A stretch of DNA of 64,000 nt. Origin: Candidatus Parcubacteria bacterium. GTDB taxonomy: Bacteria > Patescibacteriota > Minisyncoccia > Minisyncoccales > JAGLUP01. How positions within the stretch are numbered: position 1 is the stretch's first letter; every line of letters starts with the position of its first letter. Location of the stretch: positions 62,001-126,000 of the forward strand of contig JAGLUP010000003.1 in NCBI GenBank assembly GCA_023134715.1, read 5' to 3'. Position numbers and translations under genes: made by a program. The notes beneath the pieces were generated by a model. The model did no database searches. It worked only from the letters and a program-made list of their open reading frames with translations, and was not told the DNA's origin. Positions 11,885 through 20,873 of this stretch are shown here, piece by piece.

Positions 11885-11895
11885 AGAAATTTCAA

Positions 11896-11922
11896 GGAGC
11901 TTAGCTCCTGGAGCTAAGCTCC
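11896..11922. repeat. REP-like palindrome copy 1
   Basis: GGAGCTTAGCTCC, T, GGAGCTAAGCTCC: two 13-nt arms that are exact reverse complements. Each arm is itself a six-pair palindrome around one base. The outer CCCACG/CGTGGG extension seen in other copies is eroded here. Confidence 0.9.
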
Positions 11923-11934
11923 CTAGGTCCGTGG

Positions 11935-11962
11935 TTGACAAAATTTATTATCATGATATGCT
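11935..11962 (+). promoter_or_regulatory. Promoter of the REP-flanked unknown gene
   Basis: TTGACA (11935-11940), a 16-nt spacer and TATGCT (11957-11962), starting only 12 nt after REP copy 1. The expected leader is about 65 nt. Confidence 0.6.
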
Positions 11963-12020
11963 TAGCTGTTCGATGAAAAGAATAAAATTTGTTCTTTGAG
12001 AATAAAATATACAAATATGG

Positions 12021-12030
12021 GAGGTGAGGA
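12021..12030 (+). promoter_or_regulatory. Unusually strong Shine-Dalgarno sequence
   Basis: GGGAGGTGAGG stands 5-6 nt before ATG 12034 and matches the full anti-SD. Most plus-strand genes of the window have no SD, so this one stands out. Confidence 0.75.
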
Positions 12031-12033
12031 AAA

Positions 12034-12669
12034 ATGAGTAAAGAAGTAATAAATAACATAAATAAGGCAATTAAAAGAACAGGAAAGGAGCTGAAAGAAG
12101 AGACAGACAAAAAATCTCCTGACCACAAAAGGATTAAGGGGTTAGAAGAATATATGTCAAGTTTGCGAAAAGATAGGGCAAGAGAAGCTGAGATAAAAAT
12201 TCTTGAAGACAGTGACCAAAGAAAAGAAAAAAGTGAGGAAAAACCGAGAGCAGTTGTTCGTGAAGTTGATGGTAAGTTGGTACTAGACGATCCTGATGCA
12301 GTAGCCGTGATGGAAGCAGTAGGAAAACACAATTGCCAGAACACATTGGAATTGAACGCTGATCGAGTTGCGCATTTCAAAAATCGTATTTCGGAACGTG
12401 AATTAACGGCTTCCAATACGGTGATTGTGCTTTTGAATGTTGATGATGTTCATGGCGGTCCAATTGCCGACATCTTAATGCCTGAATACAATTGGAAGGA
12501 AATTCGCGATCGTGGAGAAGTTCCTTTTGCGCGAGGACTTGCTGACCGAGAATTTATTCAAGAAGTACTTAATACTTTCGACCAAGAAGCCGGTAAGAAG
12601 TTACAAGATATGTCAAAAGTGGCTGTTGTGGTCGTAGATCACGGAGTCGCCGAAGTATTTTCGGCATGA
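12034..12669 (+). CDS. Unknown protein flanked by REP-like palindromes
   Basis: A 211-residue soluble protein that I do not recognise. Residues 1-75 are highly charged and predicted helical or coiled. Residues 80-211 look like a compact alpha/beta domain: VVREVDGKLVLDDPDAVAVMEAVG, NTVIVLLNVDDVHGGPIADIL, VPFARGLADREFIQEV and a final hydrophobic strand VAVVVVDHGVAEVF. There are no membrane segments. Its base and codon use is visibly less AT-rich than the neighbours, its SD is strong, it has its own promoter and a good terminator, and palindrome copies lie on both sides. These point to a recently acquired, independently expressed gene. Confidence 0.7.
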   Translation: MSKEVINNINKAIKRTGKELKEETDKKSPDHKRIKGLEEYMSSLRKDRAREAEIKILEDSDQRKEKSEEKPRAVVREVDGKLVLDDPDAVAVMEAVGKHNCQNTLELNADRVAHFKNRISERELTASNTVIVLLNVDDVHGGPIADILMPEYNWKEIRDRGEVPFARGLADREFIQEVLNTFDQEAGKKLQDMSKVAVVVVDHGVAEVFSA

Positions 12670-12732
12670 ACAGAAGCACAACAAAATAAGTAGCAAGAGT
12701 TGGTTATTATTGTGATTAATATATAATTAATG

Positions 12733-12761
12733 AGAAGAGTTTTATACTCTTCTATTTTTTT
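12733..12761 (+). terminator. Intrinsic terminator after the REP-flanked gene
   Basis: AGAAGAG (12733-12739) pairs with CTCTTCT (12747-12753), followed by ATTTTTTT. The rest of the gap up to REP copy 2 (12762-12890) is AT-rich, with nothing recognised. Confidence 0.8.
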
Positions 12762-12890
12762 ATTTAAAATTCTACTAAATTAGAAAAAGAAAATAAAACT
12801 TATTCCTATAGTTTAGTTATAGAAAAATTGCAAGCAGGTAGTTCTCCACTGGCAATACTTTCAATAAATTTGTAAAATAAAAGAGAAGGG

Positions 12891-12935
12891 AAAACCCACG
12901 GAGCTTAGCTCCAGGAGCTAAGCTCCGTGGGTTTT
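12891..12935. repeat. REP-like palindrome copy 2 (full length)
   Basis: A perfect inverted repeat of two 22-nt arms (12891-12912 and 12914-12935) around a single A. Each arm consists of AAAACCCAC followed by the 13-nt GGAGCTTAGCTCC core, or its complement. It lies 45 nt upstream of the transposase gene. Confidence 0.95.
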
Positions 12936-12979
12936 CATAGGTTGAGCTTTATGGAATTAGTTTAATTTTATATTTTTAT

Positions 12980-13645
12980 ATGAGAAAGATTCAATTTGCT
13001 GATAATGAATATTATCATATTTATAATCGAGGCGTGGATAAGCGCGACATTTTTCTTGATGACGAGGATTATTTAAATTTTTTAAAGGATTTGAAAGAAT
13101 TTAATAATAATTCTTATCACGACGAAAGATTAAGAGTTTTGGGTCATTCTTCCAGTTTACGTTTTAAGGAGCTTAATTTCTTTTTGAATGATTTAGAGAG
13201 GGTGGTAGATGTAATAGCTTATTCGTTGAATCCAAATCACTTTCATCTTATATTAAAACAATTAAGAGAGAATGGTATTCCAAATTTTATGCATAAGATT
13301 GGGACTGGTTTCACAAATAAATTTAATAAAAAATATGATCGTTCTGGCTCGCTTTTCCAAGGCTCTTATAAGGCGATTCATATTGATAACAATAATTATC
13401 TTCTTTGGTTAGCGGGTTATGTTAATGGAAACATTGAAATTCACAGTAGCGAAAAAGCAGAGTTTTATAAATGGTCAAGCTTTAAGAGCTTTTTAAATCA
13501 AGAAACAAGCGAAATTTTAGGAGATATAGATGTTATTCTTTCTCAATTTGAAGATGCTGAGAGATTCAAAGAATTTATTGAAAGGGTAATCAGCGAAAGC
13601 AAGACAAAGAAAGAAATGGAAAAGTATTTATTAGAAAAGATTTAA
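12980..13645 (+). CDS. REP-associated tyrosine transposase (RAYT, Y1/HUH family)
   Basis: A 221-residue transposase-like protein related to IS200/IS605 TnpA and the TnpA_REP family. The N-terminus YYHIYNRGVDKRDIF is diagnostic. The HUH motif is NPNHFHLIL near 92-100 and the catalytic Tyr probably lies in the helix around KKYDRSGSLFQGSYKA (about 131-146). RAYTs are single-copy enzymes that nick and spread short palindromic REP sequences rather than themselves. Perfect palindromes flank the gene: copy 2 ends 44 nt upstream and copy 3 begins at the base after the stop codon. A TTATAT box ends 6 nt before the ATG. The length is full and no frame damage is seen. Confidence 0.93.
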   Translation: MRKIQFADNEYYHIYNRGVDKRDIFLDDEDYLNFLKDLKEFNNNSYHDERLRVLGHSSSLRFKELNFFLNDLERVVDVIAYSLNPNHFHLILKQLRENGIPNFMHKIGTGFTNKFNKKYDRSGSLFQGSYKAIHIDNNNYLLWLAGYVNGNIEIHSSEKAEFYKWSSFKSFLNQETSEILGDIDVILSQFEDAERFKEFIERVISESKTKKEMEKYLLEKI

Positions 13646-13686
13646 GACCCACGGAGCTTAGCTCCCGGAGCTAAGCTCCGTGGGTC
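13646..13686. repeat. REP-like palindrome copy 3
   Basis: Two 20-nt arms (13646-13665 and 13667-13686), exact reverse complements around one C: GACCCAC plus the 13-nt core. The left arm begins immediately after the TAA of the transposase. Confidence 0.95.
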
Positions 13687-13709
13687 TCCGTGGATTTAGT
13701 CAAGATGGC

Positions 13710-13737
13710 TTCTCCATTGATTCTTCTCCATTGATTC
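13710..13737. repeat. Tandem duplication of 14 nt
   Basis: TTCTCCATTGATTC occurs twice in direct succession just downstream of palindrome copy 3, compatible with slippage or a scar of element insertion or excision. Confidence 0.8.
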
Positions 13738-13809
13738 CCGGTTGATATAAAATTTGACATTAGGTCAAGGAGCTTGTAGAATTAAAAAATAGTAAGAAAT
13801 AGTAAGTTT

Positions 13810-13826
13810 CTGTAGCTAAGCTACAG
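13810..13826. repeat. REP-like palindrome variant with GTAG core
   Basis: CTGTAGCTAAGCTACAG: the same centre as the other copies, but GGAG...CTCC is replaced by GTAG...CTAC, a change on both sides that keeps the pairing. Only one half-unit is present. Confidence 0.7.
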
Positions 13827-13867
13827 GAAAAATAGAATTAGAATTAAAAAGCGTCGGTTTTTTTATT

Positions 13868-13893
13868 ATTGGTTTAATTTATTGGTTTAATTT
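13868..13893. repeat. Tandem duplication of 13 nt before the start of the next gene
   Basis: ATTGGTTTAATTT occurs twice without a gap and ends 7 nt before ATG 13901. Confidence 0.75.
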
Positions 13894-13900
13894 TTTTATT

Positions 13901-14527
13901 ATGAACATTATAAATGAAATGAGAAATATGAGCAAAAAGACAAAAATTATTGTTTTAATTGCTATTTTACTTATCCTCGCCGGTGGGATTTTTTTGTGGA
14001 ATGAAAGGAGAGAAAAACAAGGAATGGGGTTTGCGAATTTAGAGAATTATACTGTTAAAGAGACCTCTGAAGGCAAGTTGGTGGAAATAAAGGATATAGG
14101 ATTAAGTTTTAATATACCTGAAGGATGGAGGATAGGTATTCCTGATTACGGAACCCAGATATTTTTTTATAGCCCAGACGAGAAAGAAAAAAATAGATTT
14201 TTAATAAATGAAGGATGCAAAATAGATATAGAGGTAGAGCAAAGGAAAGTAGATATAAATAAAATAGAAGAAGAAATAGACTCATATACACTTGGCTATC
14301 TTTCAGCAAATAATGAAATTATAACAGTGGACAACAGGCAGGCTCTTAAGAGCTCAGAGGAATTGTCAGAAAGTCTTAATTTGTATCATGTTATGGTTTT
14401 TGTCCCATATAATAATTTATTCTGTGAGGATAAAATTTATTCATTTGGGCTGTTTTCTAATTTGAAAGACAAAGAAAGGTGTTCGCAGGAATTTGATAAA
14501 TTTTTAGAAACAATATCAATTAAATAA
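13901..14527 (+). CDS. Membrane-anchored extracytoplasmic protein, unknown
   Basis: A protein of up to 208 residues with one N-terminal membrane helix (KIIVLIAILLILAGGIFLW) and an exported C-terminal domain. GLSFNIPEGWRIG followed by FFYSPDEKEKN resembles the PsbP/MOG1-like or lipoprotein-type beta folds found beside cell-surface proteins, but no family is certain. Three in-frame ATGs (13901, 13919, 13928) are possible; the last gives the most compact signal-anchor. The stop is 8 nt before the next gene, so it is probably co-transcribed with the 1419-residue surface protein. Confidence 0.6.
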   Translation: MNIINEMRNMSKKTKIIVLIAILLILAGGIFLWNERREKQGMGFANLENYTVKETSEGKLVEIKDIGLSFNIPEGWRIGIPDYGTQIFFYSPDEKEKNRFLINEGCKIDIEVEQRKVDINKIEEEIDSYTLGYLSANNEIITVDNRQALKSSEELSESLNLYHVMVFVPYNNLFCEDKIYSFGLFSNLKDKERCSQEFDKFLETISIK

Positions 14528-14535
14528 GAGTAAAA

Positions 14536-17500
14536 ATGAATATTTTGAATAAAAAGGTTTTTTTAGTATTTTTACTGTTTTTTTCAGTAAGTTTTTTTGC
14601 TTTGCCTCAAAATTGTTTTGCTGATAGTTCAGAAACATCAGAATATCTTGAACTTTCTGAAAAAGACGCAAAAAATTTAATGAAACCGCTTATTCAGGGC
14701 TCAATAGATAGTTGGACAGCTATAGCAGGATTATCTCAACCAGAAGAAGAAGCGATTTTGAAGATTTTAGAAAATTCTATTAGATATGACCAGATTAAAT
14801 TTTGGTTAAGCTATATTCCCGCGCAAACAGCAAAAACAATTGTAAAAGGAGCTATTAAAATTGCTCCTTTAGTGGCAAGTTCTGAAATATCTGTTGTTTT
14901 AGATAAAATTGAGAAAATGTCTGTTGAACAAGCGGTAAAATATGGAGAAAATTGGCTTTTGCAAAATCAAATAAGAAAAGCAAGCGGTGTTTTAACTGAT
15001 TCCTATGAAACCTATAGCAAGACTACACATAAGCCTGTTTTTCAGTTTATTATTATTTATAAGCCAAAAAATAAAGAAATTAGAATAACAATTTATTCGC
15101 CAAATAGTGTTGATCCTCCGCATCCTACAAGAAAATATCAATGGATAGGAAACGGAGGCAAGCCAATAGATCCATTTATAGTAAATATAAGCGGAAAGGC
15201 GGAAAAAGAGAAATCCGGACAATATAAATGGACGAGAGGGCCAAATATTGATATTTCTTTTCCGGAAGATGTTCCGGATTTAGGCATAAAACCGCTTTCT
15301 TTTTGGGAAAAACAGAAGAAAGGCGTTGAAAACGAGTTGAAAAAGAAAAAAATAGTTTTAACACAGTTTTTAAAGTGGGTGAGCAGTGAAACAAATGTAA
15401 ATGTAGAAGGTATTTGGGCTAAAATTAAGGATACTATCTCTAACATTGACTTGTTCGGCGGCGCGGCGTTGGTGGAGACGCCAATATTAAAAGATGAAAA
15501 ATTAACATTGACTGAAGATTTTCCAGAAATTTTTTCAGAAACTGAGTCAAGCGCGTCAGTGGAACCAGAAACAGAGCCTCAACCAGAGGTTGATGCTAAG
15601 TTTCAATCTGAGGATAAATCAGATGGGGTCGGACATAACATAGGACAGACATTAAGTAAAGATGAGATCGAGGAGGAATTAAAAGGGATTTTAGAGGAAG
15701 TTGATAAGATTAGTCAGGAAGTTAAGGAATTAGTTGGACATATTGAAGAAAAATTGGTTGACGCTGAAGATATGAAGGACAAAGAGGAAGAAGAGACAGT
15801 AGAAGAAGACGAGGAAACAGAGATAGAGTTGGCAAAATCCACGGTTCTTTGCGATAAAAAATTTGGGAATTCGCCTGTTCAAAACAAGGTTATTATCAAT
15901 GAGGTAGCTTGGATGGGGACAAAAAATTCCTCAAATGACGAGTGGATTGAGTTGAAAAACCTTACTAATAGCACAATCAGCTTAGAAGGATGGCAATTAA
16001 TTGATAAAAAACAGCAAATTAAAATAGTTTTTACCGCAGGAGAAGCTATTCCTGCTGGCGGGTTTTTGTTTTTGGAGAGAACTGACGATGATTCAGTGCC
16101 AAATATTGATGCTGACTTAATTTATACTGGCGCGCTTAGTAATAGCAATGAAGCATTATATCTTTTTAATGAAAATTGCCAACTTCAAGACGAAGTTTTA
16201 GCTGATTCTAAGTGGCCGGCAGGAAACAATAGCGAAAAAAGAACAATGGAAAGAGCCAATAATTTAACTTGGCATAGCTATTGTGGTCCGCATAGAGCTG
16301 GTATTTTTGGCACTCCAAAAGCGGGGAACAGTTTTGCTCCCATGGTTTTTGCTGGCAGCGGAGGCGGAGGCGGTTCCAGCGCTTCTGAACCTGAACCTGA
16401 AATTCAATACTGTTCTCAAGAAAATTTATCTTTAGCGACTTCTTTATTTGTTGTTTTAAATGAAATCGCGTGGATGGGAACAGCAACCTCTTCTAACGAC
16501 GAGTGGATTGAGCTGAAAAATGTATCTGACCAAGATGTTTCTTTAGAAGGATGGCAAATTTTAGATAAAGACGAGCAAATTAAAATAGTTTTTAGCGCAG
16601 GAGAAGCTATTCCTGCTGGCGGGTTTTTGCTTTTGGAGCGGACTGATGATGATTCTGTTCCAGATATTACAGCGGATTTAATTTATGTTGGCGGTTTGAA
16701 TAATCAAGATGAAACCCTGCGGCTTTTTGACCAAAATTGTAATTTAATAGATGAGATTCAAGCAACTTCAACCTGGTCGGCAGGAGATAATAACGAGAAA
16801 AGGACAATGGAGAGAAAGATGGGACTACCGGGATGGCTTCCCGGTAGTTGGCAAACGAGTCAAAATCCTGGCGGCACGCCAAGGCAGGAAAATAGCGAGA
16901 TTTTTGATGGAGATTTTGTAGAAGAAGAGACAGAGGAAGAACCCGAGCCCCTACCTCTGACTGAAGCTCAAAATGTTGTAATTTCTGAAATTCAGCTTGC
17001 AGACAGAGAATTTATTGAGCTTTATAATCCATTAGATGAGGATATAGATATTTCTAATTGGTATTTTTCTTATTTTTCTTCAACCAGAGATTGGAATGAG
17101 CCGTACCGAAATAAAAATTTTTCTGAAATATCTACATCTACAGCTACAACTACAATCATTATTTCAGCCAAAAGCTATTTTCTTATTGGTTTACAGGGAT
17201 ATCCAGAACAAGAAGGGAATCCAAATAGCGACTGGCAGATTTATGAAACCAGCCAATTAGGCAATCAAACTGGCGCTGTAGGTATATTTTCCTGTAATCC
17301 GCAGGACGCAACTTCTTCAGAAGAGGCAATGGCTTGTAAAATTGACGCTGTTGGCTGGGGAGATGTAATAGTTAAAGAAGCGACAAGCACTGAATCTGCT
17401 CCAGAGAACAAAAGTTTAGCGAGAATAAGAAACAGTCAAGGCAATTATGTTGACAGTAATAATAATTTTCAAGATTTTGAGATCCAAGAGATTGTTTCAC

Positions 17501-18795
17501 CTACGAATTCAAAAGGAGAAACAGGAGATGTTGTTTGTCCAGAGCCAATTTCTGATTTAGGGGCAAGTAGGACAAAAAATACTGTTGTTTTAACTTGGTC
17601 AGCGCCAAATGACCCTGGTACTTTGCCAGAAAATTTTGTTTATGAAATTCGTTATCTAAAAAATGAGGAAATTAGCGAGAATAATTGGGATAGCGCGTCA
17701 TCATCTGCCGCCACAACTACTGATTTGACGATAGCTATCTCTGACCTTTATTATAATTCTGTTTATTATTTTGGAGTCAAAACTTTTGACACTAAAAATT
17801 GTTCTCTAATTTCCAATGTTGTTTCTTTGGAGATTCCTCGCATGGGAGGAATATTGCCGGCAACAGGCCAGACAAGCTCATACGATAAGTTTGATGATGG
17901 ATTTTATTCAGCAGGATGCAATAATGGTTATACTGGTAATAATGATGGAACTATTACAGATAATTGCACTGGTTTAATTTGGCTCAAACAGGGACAGGAA
18001 AAAATGAAATGGAAAGACGCAATTGATTTTTGTAATAATTTAGATTTTGCCAGCTCCACTGACTGGCGTTTGCCAAATTATAAGGAATTATATAGTATTG
18101 TTGATTTTGGAGCGGAAAACGCGCCGGTTATTGATAAAAATTATTTTAATATTGAGCCAGACAAATATTGGACTTCATCTGCTCGAAAAAAAATACTTGG
18201 ATATGGACATCTTTATTACGCTTATGGCATAGATTTTAATACAAGGAAAACTCATAGAGTTATGTTAATGAGAAGCCATGGAGGAGGAGAAGGAGAAGAT
18301 TCTTTTTATGTTTTGCCGGTTCGCGGCCCAGATGGTCCAGATGTTCTGCCGATTACTAATTTGCATTCATCTAGCGCATACAGAGGGGGAGATGACGCGA
18401 ATTTGCAAAAAGGATGCGATTCTGAAATTCAAATCAATGAAGATGGGACTAAAACAGATACTTGTACAAATTTAATGTGGCATCATATTCAGCTTGATGG
18501 AGCTTATTGTTCTTGGGAGCAAGCGGTTGAACATGCTGAAAATTCAGATTTTGCCGGTTATACTGACTGGCGTTTGCCTAATATCCAAGAGCTTTTACTT
18601 ACAGAAGGAATATGTTATAGAGGGCTAAGCGGGCCTTGGGCATATTGGTCTTCCACTGCTTATTCTCTTGATAATAATCAGCATTGGTATTTAGATAATT
18701 ATAATGGAAGAGGAGAGACTAACGCAGGCGATCAAAATCATTTTAGTTATCATTGGGATATTCGTCTTTTATTTGTCCGAAACATTGATGATTAG
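14536..18795 (+). CDS. Large secreted multidomain surface protein (lamin-tail, Fn3, DUF1566 domains)
   Basis: A 1419-residue exported protein. The signal peptide (1-30) probably ends at NCFA-DSS. Residues 30-290 are unassigned, and 330-445 are acidic and coiled. Three lamin-tail domains follow: about 450-590 and 638-775, near-duplicates sharing AGEAIPAGGF and ERTDDDSVP, then 811-970, which is more diverged. A fibronectin type III domain is at about 998-1095. Two DUF1566/Lcl-type domains lie at 1115-1270 and 1277-1415, each with the TDWRLPN signature. No sortase motif or C-terminal membrane helix is visible. It is probably adhesive or structural. A perfect 10-pair palindrome (16824-16848) encodes GLPGWLPGS at 763-771, inside the second lamin-tail region. 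Confidence 0.8.
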   Translation: MNILNKKVFLVFLLFFSVSFFALPQNCFADSSETSEYLELSEKDAKNLMKPLIQGSIDSWTAIAGLSQPEEEAILKILENSIRYDQIKFWLSYIPAQTAKTIVKGAIKIAPLVASSEISVVLDKIEKMSVEQAVKYGENWLLQNQIRKASGVLTDSYETYSKTTHKPVFQFIIIYKPKNKEIRITIYSPNSVDPPHPTRKYQWIGNGGKPIDPFIVNISGKAEKEKSGQYKWTRGPNIDISFPEDVPDLGIKPLSFWEKQKKGVENELKKKKIVLTQFLKWVSSETNVNVEGIWAKIKDTISNIDLFGGAALVETPILKDEKLTLTEDFPEIFSETESSASVEPETEPQPEVDAKFQSEDKSDGVGHNIGQTLSKDEIEEELKGILEEVDKISQEVKELVGHIEEKLVDAEDMKDKEEEETVEEDEETEIELAKSTVLCDKKFGNSPVQNKVIINEVAWMGTKNSSNDEWIELKNLTNSTISLEGWQLIDKKQQIKIVFTAGEAIPAGGFLFLERTDDDSVPNIDADLIYTGALSNSNEALYLFNENCQLQDEVLADSKWPAGNNSEKRTMERANNLTWHSYCGPHRAGIFGTPKAGNSFAPMVFAGSGGGGGSSASEPEPEIQYCSQENLSLATSLFVVLNEIAWMGTATSSNDEWIELKNVSDQDVSLEGWQILDKDEQIKIVFSAGEAIPAGGFLLLERTDDDSVPDITADLIYVGGLNNQDETLRLFDQNCNLIDEIQATSTWSAGDNNEKRTMERKMGLPGWLPGSWQTSQNPGGTPRQENSEIFDGDFVEEETEEEPEPLPLTEAQNVVISEIQLADREFIELYNPLDEDIDISNWYFSYFSSTRDWNEPYRNKNFSEISTSTATTTIIISAKSYFLIGLQGYPEQEGNPNSDWQIYETSQLGNQTGAVGIFSCNPQDATSSEEAMACKIDAVGWGDVIVKEATSTESAPENKSLARIRNSQGNYVDSNNNFQDFEIQEIVSPTNSKGETGDVVCPEPISDLGASRTKNTVVLTWSAPNDPGTLPENFVYEIRYLKNEEISENNWDSASSSAATTTDLTIAISDLYYNSVYYFGVKTFDTKNCSLISNVVSLEIPRMGGILPATGQTSSYDKFDDGFYSAGCNNGYTGNNDGTITDNCTGLIWLKQGQEKMKWKDAIDFCNNLDFASSTDWRLPNYKELYSIVDFGAENAPVIDKNYFNIEPDKYWTSSARKKILGYGHLYYAYGIDFNTRKTHRVMLMRSHGGGEGEDSFYVLPVRGPDGPDVLPITNLHSSSAYRGGDDANLQKGCDSEIQINEDGTKTDTCTNLMWHHIQLDGAYCSWEQAVEHAENSDFAGYTDWRLPNIQELLLTEGICYRGLSGPWAYWSSTAYSLDNNQHWYLDNYNGRGETNAGDQNHFSYHWDIRLLFVRNIDD
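16824..16848. repeat. Perfect palindrome embedded in the surface-protein gene
   Basis: ACTACCGGGA (16824-16833), loop TGGCT, TCCCGGTAGT (16839-16848). The frame is kept, and the homologous position of the first lamin-tail copy in the same gene has no such sequence. Confidence 0.65.
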
Positions 18796-18813
18796 ATAAA
18801 ATTCTGCTATACT
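18785..18813 (+). promoter_or_regulatory. Promoter of the winged-helix regulator
   Basis: TTGATG (18785-18790), a 17-nt spacer and TATACT (18808-18813), partly inside the end of the upstream gene. The -10 box ends 10 nt before ATG 18824, so the leader is about 4 nt. Confidence 0.65.
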
Positions 18814-18823
18814 TGATGATATT

Positions 18824-19420
18824 ATGGATAGAGAATATATTATCAAGCTGACTTTGGCTCTTTATCGAGTAACCGAGCTTTTTCCAGAAAAAGAACCCTT
18901 GAAAGATAAATTAAGAGAACGAGCTTTAAAAATTTTAGGAGATTTAGCTCCTTATTATTTTTCCAGTGATTCTTCAATTTTAGATTCAAGAAAAAGCGAG
19001 ATAGATAAAACAGCAAAAGATATTGAGGCATTAGAAGACCTTTTAGAGATAGCCCAATCTCAAAATTGGGTTGATTTTCGTAATTTTTTGGTGCTTAATC
19101 AGGAATATGTTAATATAAGAAAAGGATTAATATACGCGAGTTTAGACGCAAATTCAACAGGAATTATTCAGGAGAAAGATAAGTTGATAGAGAAAAAAAG
19201 CAAAGAATTACCCAAAAAAGCAAAAATTTCTCCTCGCCAGGAAAAAATCTTAGAATTTCTCAAAAAACAGGAAAAAGCTCAAGTTTGGGAGCTGCAAAAA
19301 TTTTTTCCTGAAAAAACTAAAAGAACCTTAAGAAGAGATTTAGAAAATTTGTTAAGCCAGGGGCTTATTGAGCGGATAGGCAAGTGGAATGAAACATTTT
19401 ATAAAATTAAAAGTGTTTAA
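18824..19420 (+). CDS. Winged-helix (DeoR-like) DNA-binding regulator
   Basis: A 198-residue cytoplasmic protein. Residues 1-125 are helical with no motif recognised. The C-terminal 60 residues form a clear winged helix: ISPRQEKILEFLKKQ, then QVWELQKFFP, then KRTLRRDLENLLSQGLIERIG, which matches the recognition helix and wing of DeoR/HTH_11-type domains. It lies directly upstream of an ECF sigma factor and a DUF5667 gene and may regulate that set or the surface proteins nearby; this is inference. The near-leaderless promoter overlaps the preceding stop. Confidence 0.72.
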   Translation: MDREYIIKLTLALYRVTELFPEKEPLKDKLRERALKILGDLAPYYFSSDSSILDSRKSEIDKTAKDIEALEDLLEIAQSQNWVDFRNFLVLNQEYVNIRKGLIYASLDANSTGIIQEKDKLIEKKSKELPKKAKISPRQEKILEFLKKQEKAQVWELQKFFPEKTKRTLRRDLENLLSQGLIERIGKWNETFYKIKSV

Positions 19421-19463
19421 ATGTTTTATGTCCTATCTATGCTTGTTTTTGTCCTATCTTTCC

Positions 19464-19505
19464 ATTCACTATTCACTATTCACTATCCACTACTCACTAC
19501 CAACT
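19464..19505. repeat. Six degenerate 7-nt tandem repeats before the sigma factor start
   Basis: ATTCACT three times, then ATCCACT, ACTCACT and ACCAACT, ending 4 nt before ATG 19510. GTCCTATCT is also repeated at 19430 and 19451. The array occupies the place where promoter and ribosome-binding signals would be. Confidence 0.85.
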
Positions 19506-19509
19506 ATCT

Positions 19510-20013
19510 ATGTCCGACCATTATTCAATTTTTAACGAGCTTTATGACGATAATGTAGAGAATATCTATCGTTTTATTTATTTGAAAGTAAATTCTGATG
19601 ATATAGCGAAAGATTTAACCTCAGAAACCTTTACTAAAGTATGGAAAAGCTTGAATAATGGTCAAAAGTTTGATAATTCTCGGGCATTTACTTTTCAGGT
19701 TGCCCGTAATTTAATAATAGATCATTATAGGGGAAAAAATAAAACAACTATTCCTTTATCTGAATGTTCGGAAATGTCCGACCCATCTTCTGATATTGAA
19801 AAAAGATTTCAGCTTAGTTCGGACATTGACGAAATAAAAATTGCTTTGTCTGGACTTAAAGATGAATATAGGGAGGCGATTACTCTTAGGTATGTGGAAG
19901 ATATGCCTATTTCTGAAGTTGCCAAGATTTTAGGTAAAAAACAAGGAACAGTCCGGGTAATTTTACATAGAGGATTAAAGGCCCTACGGGAGAGCATAAC
20001 CCACGGAGCTTAG
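19510..20013 (+). CDS. ECF-type RNA polymerase sigma factor
   Basis: A 167-residue sigma70-family factor. Region 2 covers about 10-75: VENIYRFIYLKVN, IAKDLTSETFTKVW and FTFQVARNLIIDHYR, the -10-binding helix. Region 4 covers about 105-158: LKDEYREAITLRYVEDMPISEVAKILGKK and TVRVILHRGLKALRE, the -35-binding helix-turn-helix. The last residues ITHGA and the TAG stop (20011-20013) are encoded by the left arm of a REP-like palindrome, so the original C-terminus has probably been replaced. The DUF5667 membrane protein downstream is a likely regulatory partner. Confidence 0.88.
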   Translation: MSDHYSIFNELYDDNVENIYRFIYLKVNSDDIAKDLTSETFTKVWKSLNNGQKFDNSRAFTFQVARNLIIDHYRGKNKTTIPLSECSEMSDPSSDIEKRFQLSSDIDEIKIALSGLKDEYREAITLRYVEDMPISEVAKILGKKQGTVRVILHRGLKALRESITHGA

Positions 20014-20037
20014 CTCCGGAGCTAAGCTCCGTGGGTT
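19998..20037. repeat. REP-like palindrome copy 4, overlapping the sigma factor 3' end
   Basis: Two 20-nt arms, AACCCAC plus the 13-nt core, meeting without a spacer (19998-20017 and 20018-20037). The left arm contains the sigma factor stop codon. Confidence 0.95.
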
Positions 20038-20108
20038 TAAGTGTAACATTTTGCTCGGTTTCTCGTCTTCATATTAAAGGGTAAAGTTTATTTATAAACA
20101 ATTTATTT

Positions 20109-20873
20109 ATGAACGACGCCATTCTCATTAAAAAACTCAAAGAATTAAAACAGGTGAAACCCAGCAATGACTGGGTTGTTTTAACAAAAACACAGATTTT
20201 AAACCAAGAGCAGTTCCAAGGAGCTAAGCTCCGGGAGCTAAGCTCCATTGGTTTTTTTATAAAAAGATTGATTTTTCGACAGGGTTTTGCTACTATATCA
20301 GCAATTGGAATTTTAGCTTTAGTCGGTGGTTTTGGTTTTGCTCAGAATTCTATGCCTGGTGATTTTCTTTATCCGGTTAAAAAAATTACAGAAAGAGCCA
20401 AAACATATGTTTTTAAAGAAGCAAGTCCGGAAAGTCAGTTAAAATTGACTGAACAGCGGTTAAAAGAATTAGCTCAAATTACTGAAGAAAATCAAGTTGA
20501 AAGCTTATCTTCCGCGCTTAAAGAGTATGAAACAGCTAAAATAGAGGTAGAAAAACAGGTTTCCATTTTAATTAAAGAAAGTAAGACAGAGAAGGAGAAA
20601 ATTAAAATAGCGAAAGAATTCGCGCCTCAACTTAAAGTAATATATGAGGAAGAAAAACAGGTTTACGCAACATTGCAAATTAAACCAGACGAACAAACAA
20701 GCGGAAATACATATAAAATAGTTGTTGAGCCGCTTATTAAAGACCTGAACTCTCAAATACTTACCGAAGAACAGCAGGAGATATTAGAACAAGCCCAAGA
20801 ATTGTTTAAAAATCAGGAATATCAGAAAGCGTTAGAAAAAATATTATTATTGAGTTATCCACAAGCAGAATAA
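20109..20873 (+). CDS. DUF5667-type membrane protein, probable anti-sigma partner
   Basis: A 254-residue protein. A short cytoplasmic part (1-55) has KPSNDWVVL, similar to the N-terminus of anti-sigma-like DUF5667 proteins. One membrane helix (about 62-80) follows, then MPGDFLYPVKKITERAK, the DUF5667 hallmark, and a helical extracytoplasmic domain to the end. The position directly after an ECF sigma factor supports an anti-sigma role; this is inference. Residues 38-46 (GAKLRELSS), between the cytoplasmic segment and the helix, are encoded by a REP-like element inserted in frame (20220-20246). Confidence 0.75.
   Translation: MNDAILIKKLKELKQVKPSNDWVVLTKTQILNQEQFQGAKLRELSSIGFFIKRLIFRQGFATISAIGILALVGGFGFAQNSMPGDFLYPVKKITERAKTYVFKEASPESQLKLTEQRLKELAQITEENQVESLSSALKEYETAKIEVEKQVSILIKESKTEKEKIKIAKEFAPQLKVIYEEEKQVYATLQIKPDEQTSGNTYKIVVEPLIKDLNSQILTEEQQEILEQAQELFKNQEYQKALEKILLLSYPQAE
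20220..20246. repeat. REP-like palindrome copy 5, in frame inside the DUF5667 gene
   Basis: GGAGCTAAGCTCC (20220-20232), G, GGAGCTAAGCTCC (20234-20246), with outer CCAA and TTGG. The two halves are identical rather than complementary, so each forms a small hairpin while the long hairpin keeps a central mismatch. Its length leaves the reading frame open. Confidence 0.9.

Follow-up and report, generated by a model that had tools for sequence, protein, structure and literature searches.

A palindrome family that frames a RAYT gene and recurs within conserved genes: a probable REPtron-like system in Patescibacteria

A 64,000-nt stretch of a Candidatus Parcubacteria genome (order Minisyncoccales; assembly GCA_023134715.1, contig JAGLUP010000003.1, positions 62,001 to 126,000), hereafter the window, contains a gene resembling those of REP-associated tyrosine transposases (RAYTs; REP, repetitive extragenic palindrome), with a palindrome on either side and further copies of the same palindrome nearby. 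The bacterium is small and probably symbiotic. The locus raises the question of whether gene and palindromes form one system, and of how copies come to lie elsewhere, including inside conserved genes. With a probability of roughly 0.7, we read it as a REPtron-like system of Patescibacteria, in which a single-copy RAYT of the Y1/HUH family is framed by its own palindrome and has spread the further copies scattered through the genome.

Five doublets of GGAGCTTAGCTCC lie between 11896 and 20246, all at the positions first reported. Exact cores (GGAGCT[T/A]AGCTCC) are found at 11896/11910, 12900/12914, 13653/13667, 20005/20018 and 20220/20234. With up to two mismatches allowed, 11 matches to the core occur in the window where 1.06 would be expected, and no shuffle out of 100 reached 11. 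The original prediction had described three doublets as perfect and two as bracketing the RAYT gene, and all were located as described, the perfect ones being 47, 43 and 40 nt long. The features are as follows, in window positions (strand is given for the gene only):

11894..11922: element 1, doublet; 11 nt past the stop of a trypsin-like peptidase gene
12890..12936: element 2, doublet, perfect 47-nt palindrome with a 1-nt centre; left bracket of the RAYT gene
12980..13645, forward strand: RAYT-like gene, 221 aa, Y1/HUH transposase family; Y1_Tnp match; H87, H89, Y147, N151
13645..13687: element 3, doublet, perfect 43-nt palindrome; right bracket of the RAYT gene
13807..13829: single copy of variant sequence, GTAGCTAAGCTAC core at 13812; both stem bases changed
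19998..20037: element 4, doublet without spacer, perfect 40-nt palindrome; 3' end of a sigma-factor gene
20220..20246: element 5, doublet; lies within 20109-20873, a gene of the DUF5667 family; in-frame reading GAKLRELSS

The 12900 copy stands 44 nt before the start of the RAYT gene and the 13653 copy directly at its stop. Folded as single-stranded DNA, each of the three perfect palindromes forms a single long hairpin, as had been proposed (-27.5, -25.4 and -22.3 kcal/mol, z -12.5, -9.3 and -8.6, for the 47-, 43- and 40-nt palindromes), and the copies at 11896 and 20220 fold more weakly. The extracytoplasmic function sigma-factor gene (19510-20013) receives its TAG stop from the 20005 copy. 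Searches against Rfam, PADLOC and PHROGs returned no match. Inside the RAYT gene, AAGGAGCTTAATTTCTT at 13166-13182 corresponds to the 17-mer AAGGAGCTWAGCTCCTT with three mismatches (0.21 expected by chance window-wide) and is perhaps an old in-gene copy. At its ends this 17-mer reads AAGGAG, which is the Shine-Dalgarno core, and CTCCTT, which is the complement of that core; this is probably a coincidence because the palindromes differ in other RAYT lineages.

The 221-aa RAYT product matches Y1_Tnp (PF01797) at 29.2 bits against a cut-off of 23, and its gene is the only Y1_Tnp gene found in the 762-kb, 90% complete genome. In an alignment of 69 homologues, H87, H89, Y147 and N151 are invariant and the motifs NHFH, LFQG, Y[IV]xxN and WSS are recognizable; the tyrosine motif of the window protein reads YVNGN, without P, and the HuH-Y distance is about 60 aa. 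Judged from its sequence, the residues that a Y1/HUH nuclease needs for catalysis are intact. A Pfam search of this protein retrieved Y1_Tnp only, with neither a helix-turn-helix nor a Bac_DnaA_C domain. Searching PDB with the single sequence gave no relevant match, and a profile search gave a weak one (E 0.012) to the transposase 2xm3, which we take to be that of ISDra2. The named relatives are from Candidatus Paceibacterota (34% identity) and Moranbacteria (a short match).

The bracketing recurs throughout the order. Around 69 distinct homologues of the window's RAYT, most of them sharing 31-60% identity with it, we counted palindromes with at least 9 net pairs within 200 nt upstream of the gene or at or past its stop. 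Such palindromes were present upstream of 60 out of 66 genes and at or after the stop of 50 out of 69, compared with 124 of 2055 background windows (6%). Where both were present, an identical word of at least 12 nt was common to the left and right palindromes in 40 of 45 cases, against 0.9% between loci, so that most RAYTs have a palindrome of their own (for example AGTTGCTTAGCTTAGCTAAGCAACT, ATACACCGGTTCAACCGGTGTAT and TGTTAGACATCCGATGTCTAACA). The more similar two RAYTs are, the more similar their palindromes tend to be (Mantel r 0.35; 0 of 999 permutations). Of 31 genes from a phylum-wide sample and two named contigs, 17 had both palindromes, and in nine of these 17 the two shared sequence.

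The tetranucleotide argument of the original prediction, which had relied on GGAG and GTAG as REP tags, did not survive this comparison. Among 65 RAYT-flanking palindrome sets, GTAG was present in one, GTGG in four and GGAG in 16. The tag of classical REPs stands 5' of the hairpin foot (PMC6006769), whereas GGAG is here the stem itself. The predicted GTAG copy does exist, at 13812, but as a mere variant in which both stem bases are changed.

Several further features were seen at RAYT loci (G and L numbers denote genomes and loci). RAYT genes often hold their own palindrome within the reading frame, with no stop (L106, L107, L108 and L133); a palindrome copy within the gene has been reported for subclass 2.4 (PMC6006769). 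Two genomes contain many Y1_Tnp genes, with 15 matches in G108 and 16 in G242. The G108 RAYTs that were read are divergent, each with its own palindrome, and G242 additionally has near-identical IS200-like copies; both genomes form a natural set for specificity tests. The DnaA-box consensus TTATCCACA, or a close form of it, occurs as the spacer between inverted hairpins or about 30 nt from a palindrome, at the RAYT loci L140, L148, L131 and L127 (G230, G217, G214), at L161 (G226) and at positions 966 and 1751 of L364 (G003). Relaxed DnaA boxes are found near RAYT genes at about 3.5 times the background rate; no DnaA box was seen at the window's elements. In L364 (G003:C35), a RAYT truncated to residues 1-74 (55% identical) includes the palindrome as part of its reading frame (NPKELSSFE). 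This locus and the end of the adjacent gene have in common some 70 nt that contain a DnaA box, possibly as the scar of a recombination.

Copy number also follows the RAYT. The original prediction had named two outcomes as refuting, confinement to the five sites and equal frequency in genomes without the gene, and neither was found. Genome-wide, the exact core has 26 copies spread over 19 sites, standing alone or in groups of two or three with 14-nt steps and with two recurring arm types, (TTGT)AA...TT(ACAA) and CCCAC...GTGGG; the reversed pattern has none. Across the 247 genomes of the order, the exact core is present in 40 and a RAYT homologue in 133. The 133 genomes with a homologue hold 201 cores and the 114 without hold 12 (presence versus presence, Fisher P 5e-5, uncorrected for relatedness as are all our genome-level association tests). 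All 14 genomes with at least four cores have a RAYT homologue. The highest counts (33, 26 and 24) belong to three genomes of three families, among them the window's genome, G000, whose RAYT shares 60% and 51% identity with those of the other two. Within genera, genomes with and without a RAYT differ accordingly: 24 cores in G031 versus none in G030, 3-9 in G063, G064, G066, G067 and G068 versus none in G065, and 12 in G087 versus three in G088. In the closest RAYT subfamily (51-60% identity), the frame AAGGAG-N5-CTCCTT, whose inner bases are genome-specific, occurs at 7-31 sites in all eight genomes, compared with 0-2 in eleven controls. Doublets are mostly inverted, as in REPINs (REP doublets forming hairpins). 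This association and the bracketing across the order bear out the predicted REP-like palindrome family tied to a RAYT. At L022, two sites about 500 nt apart (470-482 and 993-1033) have a common AT-rich, promoter-like right flank with one and three units, respectively; the difference may record that units were gained or lost.

Many copies lie inside genes, which the original prediction overlooked both for the 20220 copy and for the lack of added length. Sites within long reading frames account for six of the 19 in the window's genome, 23 of the 40 read in six other genomes and 26 of 50 sampled sites. The host genes include PGK, PcnB, RF2, TPI, ThrRS, MiaA and KsgA. For three in-gene sites of the window's genome (PGK, PcnB and RF2), roughly 30 orthologues per gene were compared. 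The PGK copy, TGTAAGGAGCTTAGCTCCTTACA, occupies a KE[IL]xxL position with the same residue count in 30 out of 30 orthologues and no gap; there is likewise no gap in PcnB (29 of 29). In RF2, the site is ungapped at native KELxxL-like codons in 17 of 29 orthologues, the region being a length-variable coiled coil. Native orthologue sequences agree with the 17-mer in 8-9 of its 17 positions, whereas other sites in the same phase agree in 4.5. In other genomes, with gene names assigned by us from the protein sequences, most of the in-gene sites for which an orthologue could be aligned are ungapped too: those in TPI (in the better of its matches), MurC, MurD, ThrRS, UvrC, MiaA, MetRS and KsgA; the AlaRS alignment has a one-residue gap near the site. 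RecG was also considered as a test of insertion, but its loop varies in length across all relatives. Of the 26 sampled copies in long frames, 14 measure exactly 17 nt; copies outside such frames have longer arms on average (P 0.013). The in-gene copies thus look as if they had replaced about 17 nt of partly matching native codons and added none. A chance origin for them was rejected, the reversed pattern being absent from all 247 genomes and the exact core from 207.

Studied relatives of the RAYT cut single-stranded hairpins (PMC8266576). We infer that the RAYT would bind its own hairpin in single-stranded DNA, during replication, cut the palindrome and then release or join short single strands, so spreading copies. 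In genes at least, the released strand would not be inserted but would serve as a template by which partly matching sequence is overwritten; doublets between genes may have arisen by ordinary insertion. We propose the overwriting step tentatively, as a possibility that we would not assume: short single strands of the palindrome made by the RAYT would anneal, probably at the replication fork, to sequence matching them by about half and take its place without change of length, as a recombineering oligonucleotide does. If true, this would explain the copies inside essential genes, and the repeats would multiply without insertion.

In addition to the lack of correction for relatedness, several observations weigh against a system spread by the RAYT. 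Five genomes with 5-9 cores (G051, G064, G066, G067 and G099) have RAYTs that are framed by other palindromes or by none at the loci read, so that the cognate enzyme there is lost, unseen or different. Seven core-bearing genomes have no detected RAYT homologue, although their copies are few. No movement was seen, nor was a strain-level empty site at hand; the window's family consists of this genome only. The RAYT structure predicted from three sequences had a pLDDT of 49.6, too low to be of use. Random overwriting followed by purifying selection might also account for the partial match of native codons.

The palindrome might alternatively be the binding site of a cellular protein or a DNA-uptake-like signal, gained by point mutation and selection, which RAYTs merely carry or use. 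Gain by substitution would give just such length-neutral copies at motif-like sites of conserved genes, and some copy sites recur at the same codons in three families, in PcnB (G000, G087 and G099) and in MiaA (G035, G051 and G099). However, this leaves unexplained why the majority of RAYTs are flanked on either side by a palindrome of their own, and it sits poorly with the low copy numbers (3-33) and the absence of the motif from most relatives. Gradual gain would also leave more intermediates than the approximately three stand-alone one-mismatch forms seen in this genome next to exact cores at 19 sites. We therefore regard this alternative as unlikely.

A true IS200/IS605-type insertion sequence, mobile as a whole gene with the palindromes as its ends, would have the observed layout of a Y1 transposase with a hairpin at either end (PMC8266576). 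Yet the genome has a single Y1_Tnp gene, 69 of the 70 RAYT loci sampled are distinct at 90% identity, the palindromes far outnumber the genes, and the best-scoring canonical IS200-like genes from genomes of the same order (L075-L087) mostly lack such brackets, which makes this explanation very improbable. We give still less credence to intrinsic, possibly bidirectional, transcription terminators. Several elements do lie just past stop codons, and several terminator-like matches of the region are these elements, but a clear T run is missing from most, roughly one in two of the sampled sites falls within a long reading frame, and terminators would not match across one gene yet differ between RAYTs.

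The system favoured here, a RAYT with its own dispersed palindrome, is a REPtron by its architecture but has neither the tag nor the high copy number of classical REPs. As in the REPtrons of E. coli, Pseudomonas and Stenotrophomonas (tnpAREP/RAYT with REPs and REPINs; PMC2817692, PMC3116915 and PMC8266576), a single-copy Y1/HUH gene is framed by palindromes, copies are dispersed, doublets are inverted, and palindrome and enzyme co-vary. It differs from them in lacking a 5' GTAG/GTGG tag outside the stem, in its perfect odd palindromes of 17-29 nt, in its many length-neutral in-gene copies and in its host among Patescibacteria. Classical REPs usually exceed 100 copies, compared with 26 exact cores at about 20 sites here and an order maximum of 33. 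We found no report of such elements in Patescibacteria in the open literature, subscription papers being outside the search. How REPs spread is stated to be unsolved (PMC8266576), and this order supplies many natural enzyme-palindrome pairs, in very small genomes whose copies within conserved genes make visible the effect of a new copy on its site.

Among TnpAY1 proteins, the RAYT resembles subclass 2.1/TIRYT (PMC6006769, PMC3733652) in NHFH, FQ, Y[IV]xxN(P), a C-terminal SS and a length of about 220-250 aa, a likeness that comes from motif comparison with Table 1 of PMC6006769 and not from a tree. TIRYT genes likewise lie between inverted repeats. Di Nocera et al. described such relatives framed by terminal inverted repeats, some of them self-complementary (PMC3733652), and the idea is therefore not without precedent. 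In contrast to that group, the gene is flanked here by complete palindromes that do not contain the GGGGWSAS consensus, and Pfam detects no helix-turn-helix. Neither automatic nor manual searches had found REP-like sequences for subclass 2.1 (PMC6006769); palindrome-framed RAYTs would thus be extended to Patescibacteria within a protein subclass listed as devoid of REPs. Subclass 2.6 of Bacteroidetes also has atypical secondary structures beside the gene that recur in the genome (PMC6006769), but it carries a 21-aa insertion and an HuH-Y distance of 82 aa instead of about 60. Finally, the palindromes are read in frame inside genes like the palindromic elements of Rickettsia, of which RPE-4 and RPE-6 are CGTC REPs (PMC3733652). 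Those elements are described as inserts encoding extra residues, whereas none are added in PGK, PcnB and most other genes aligned here.

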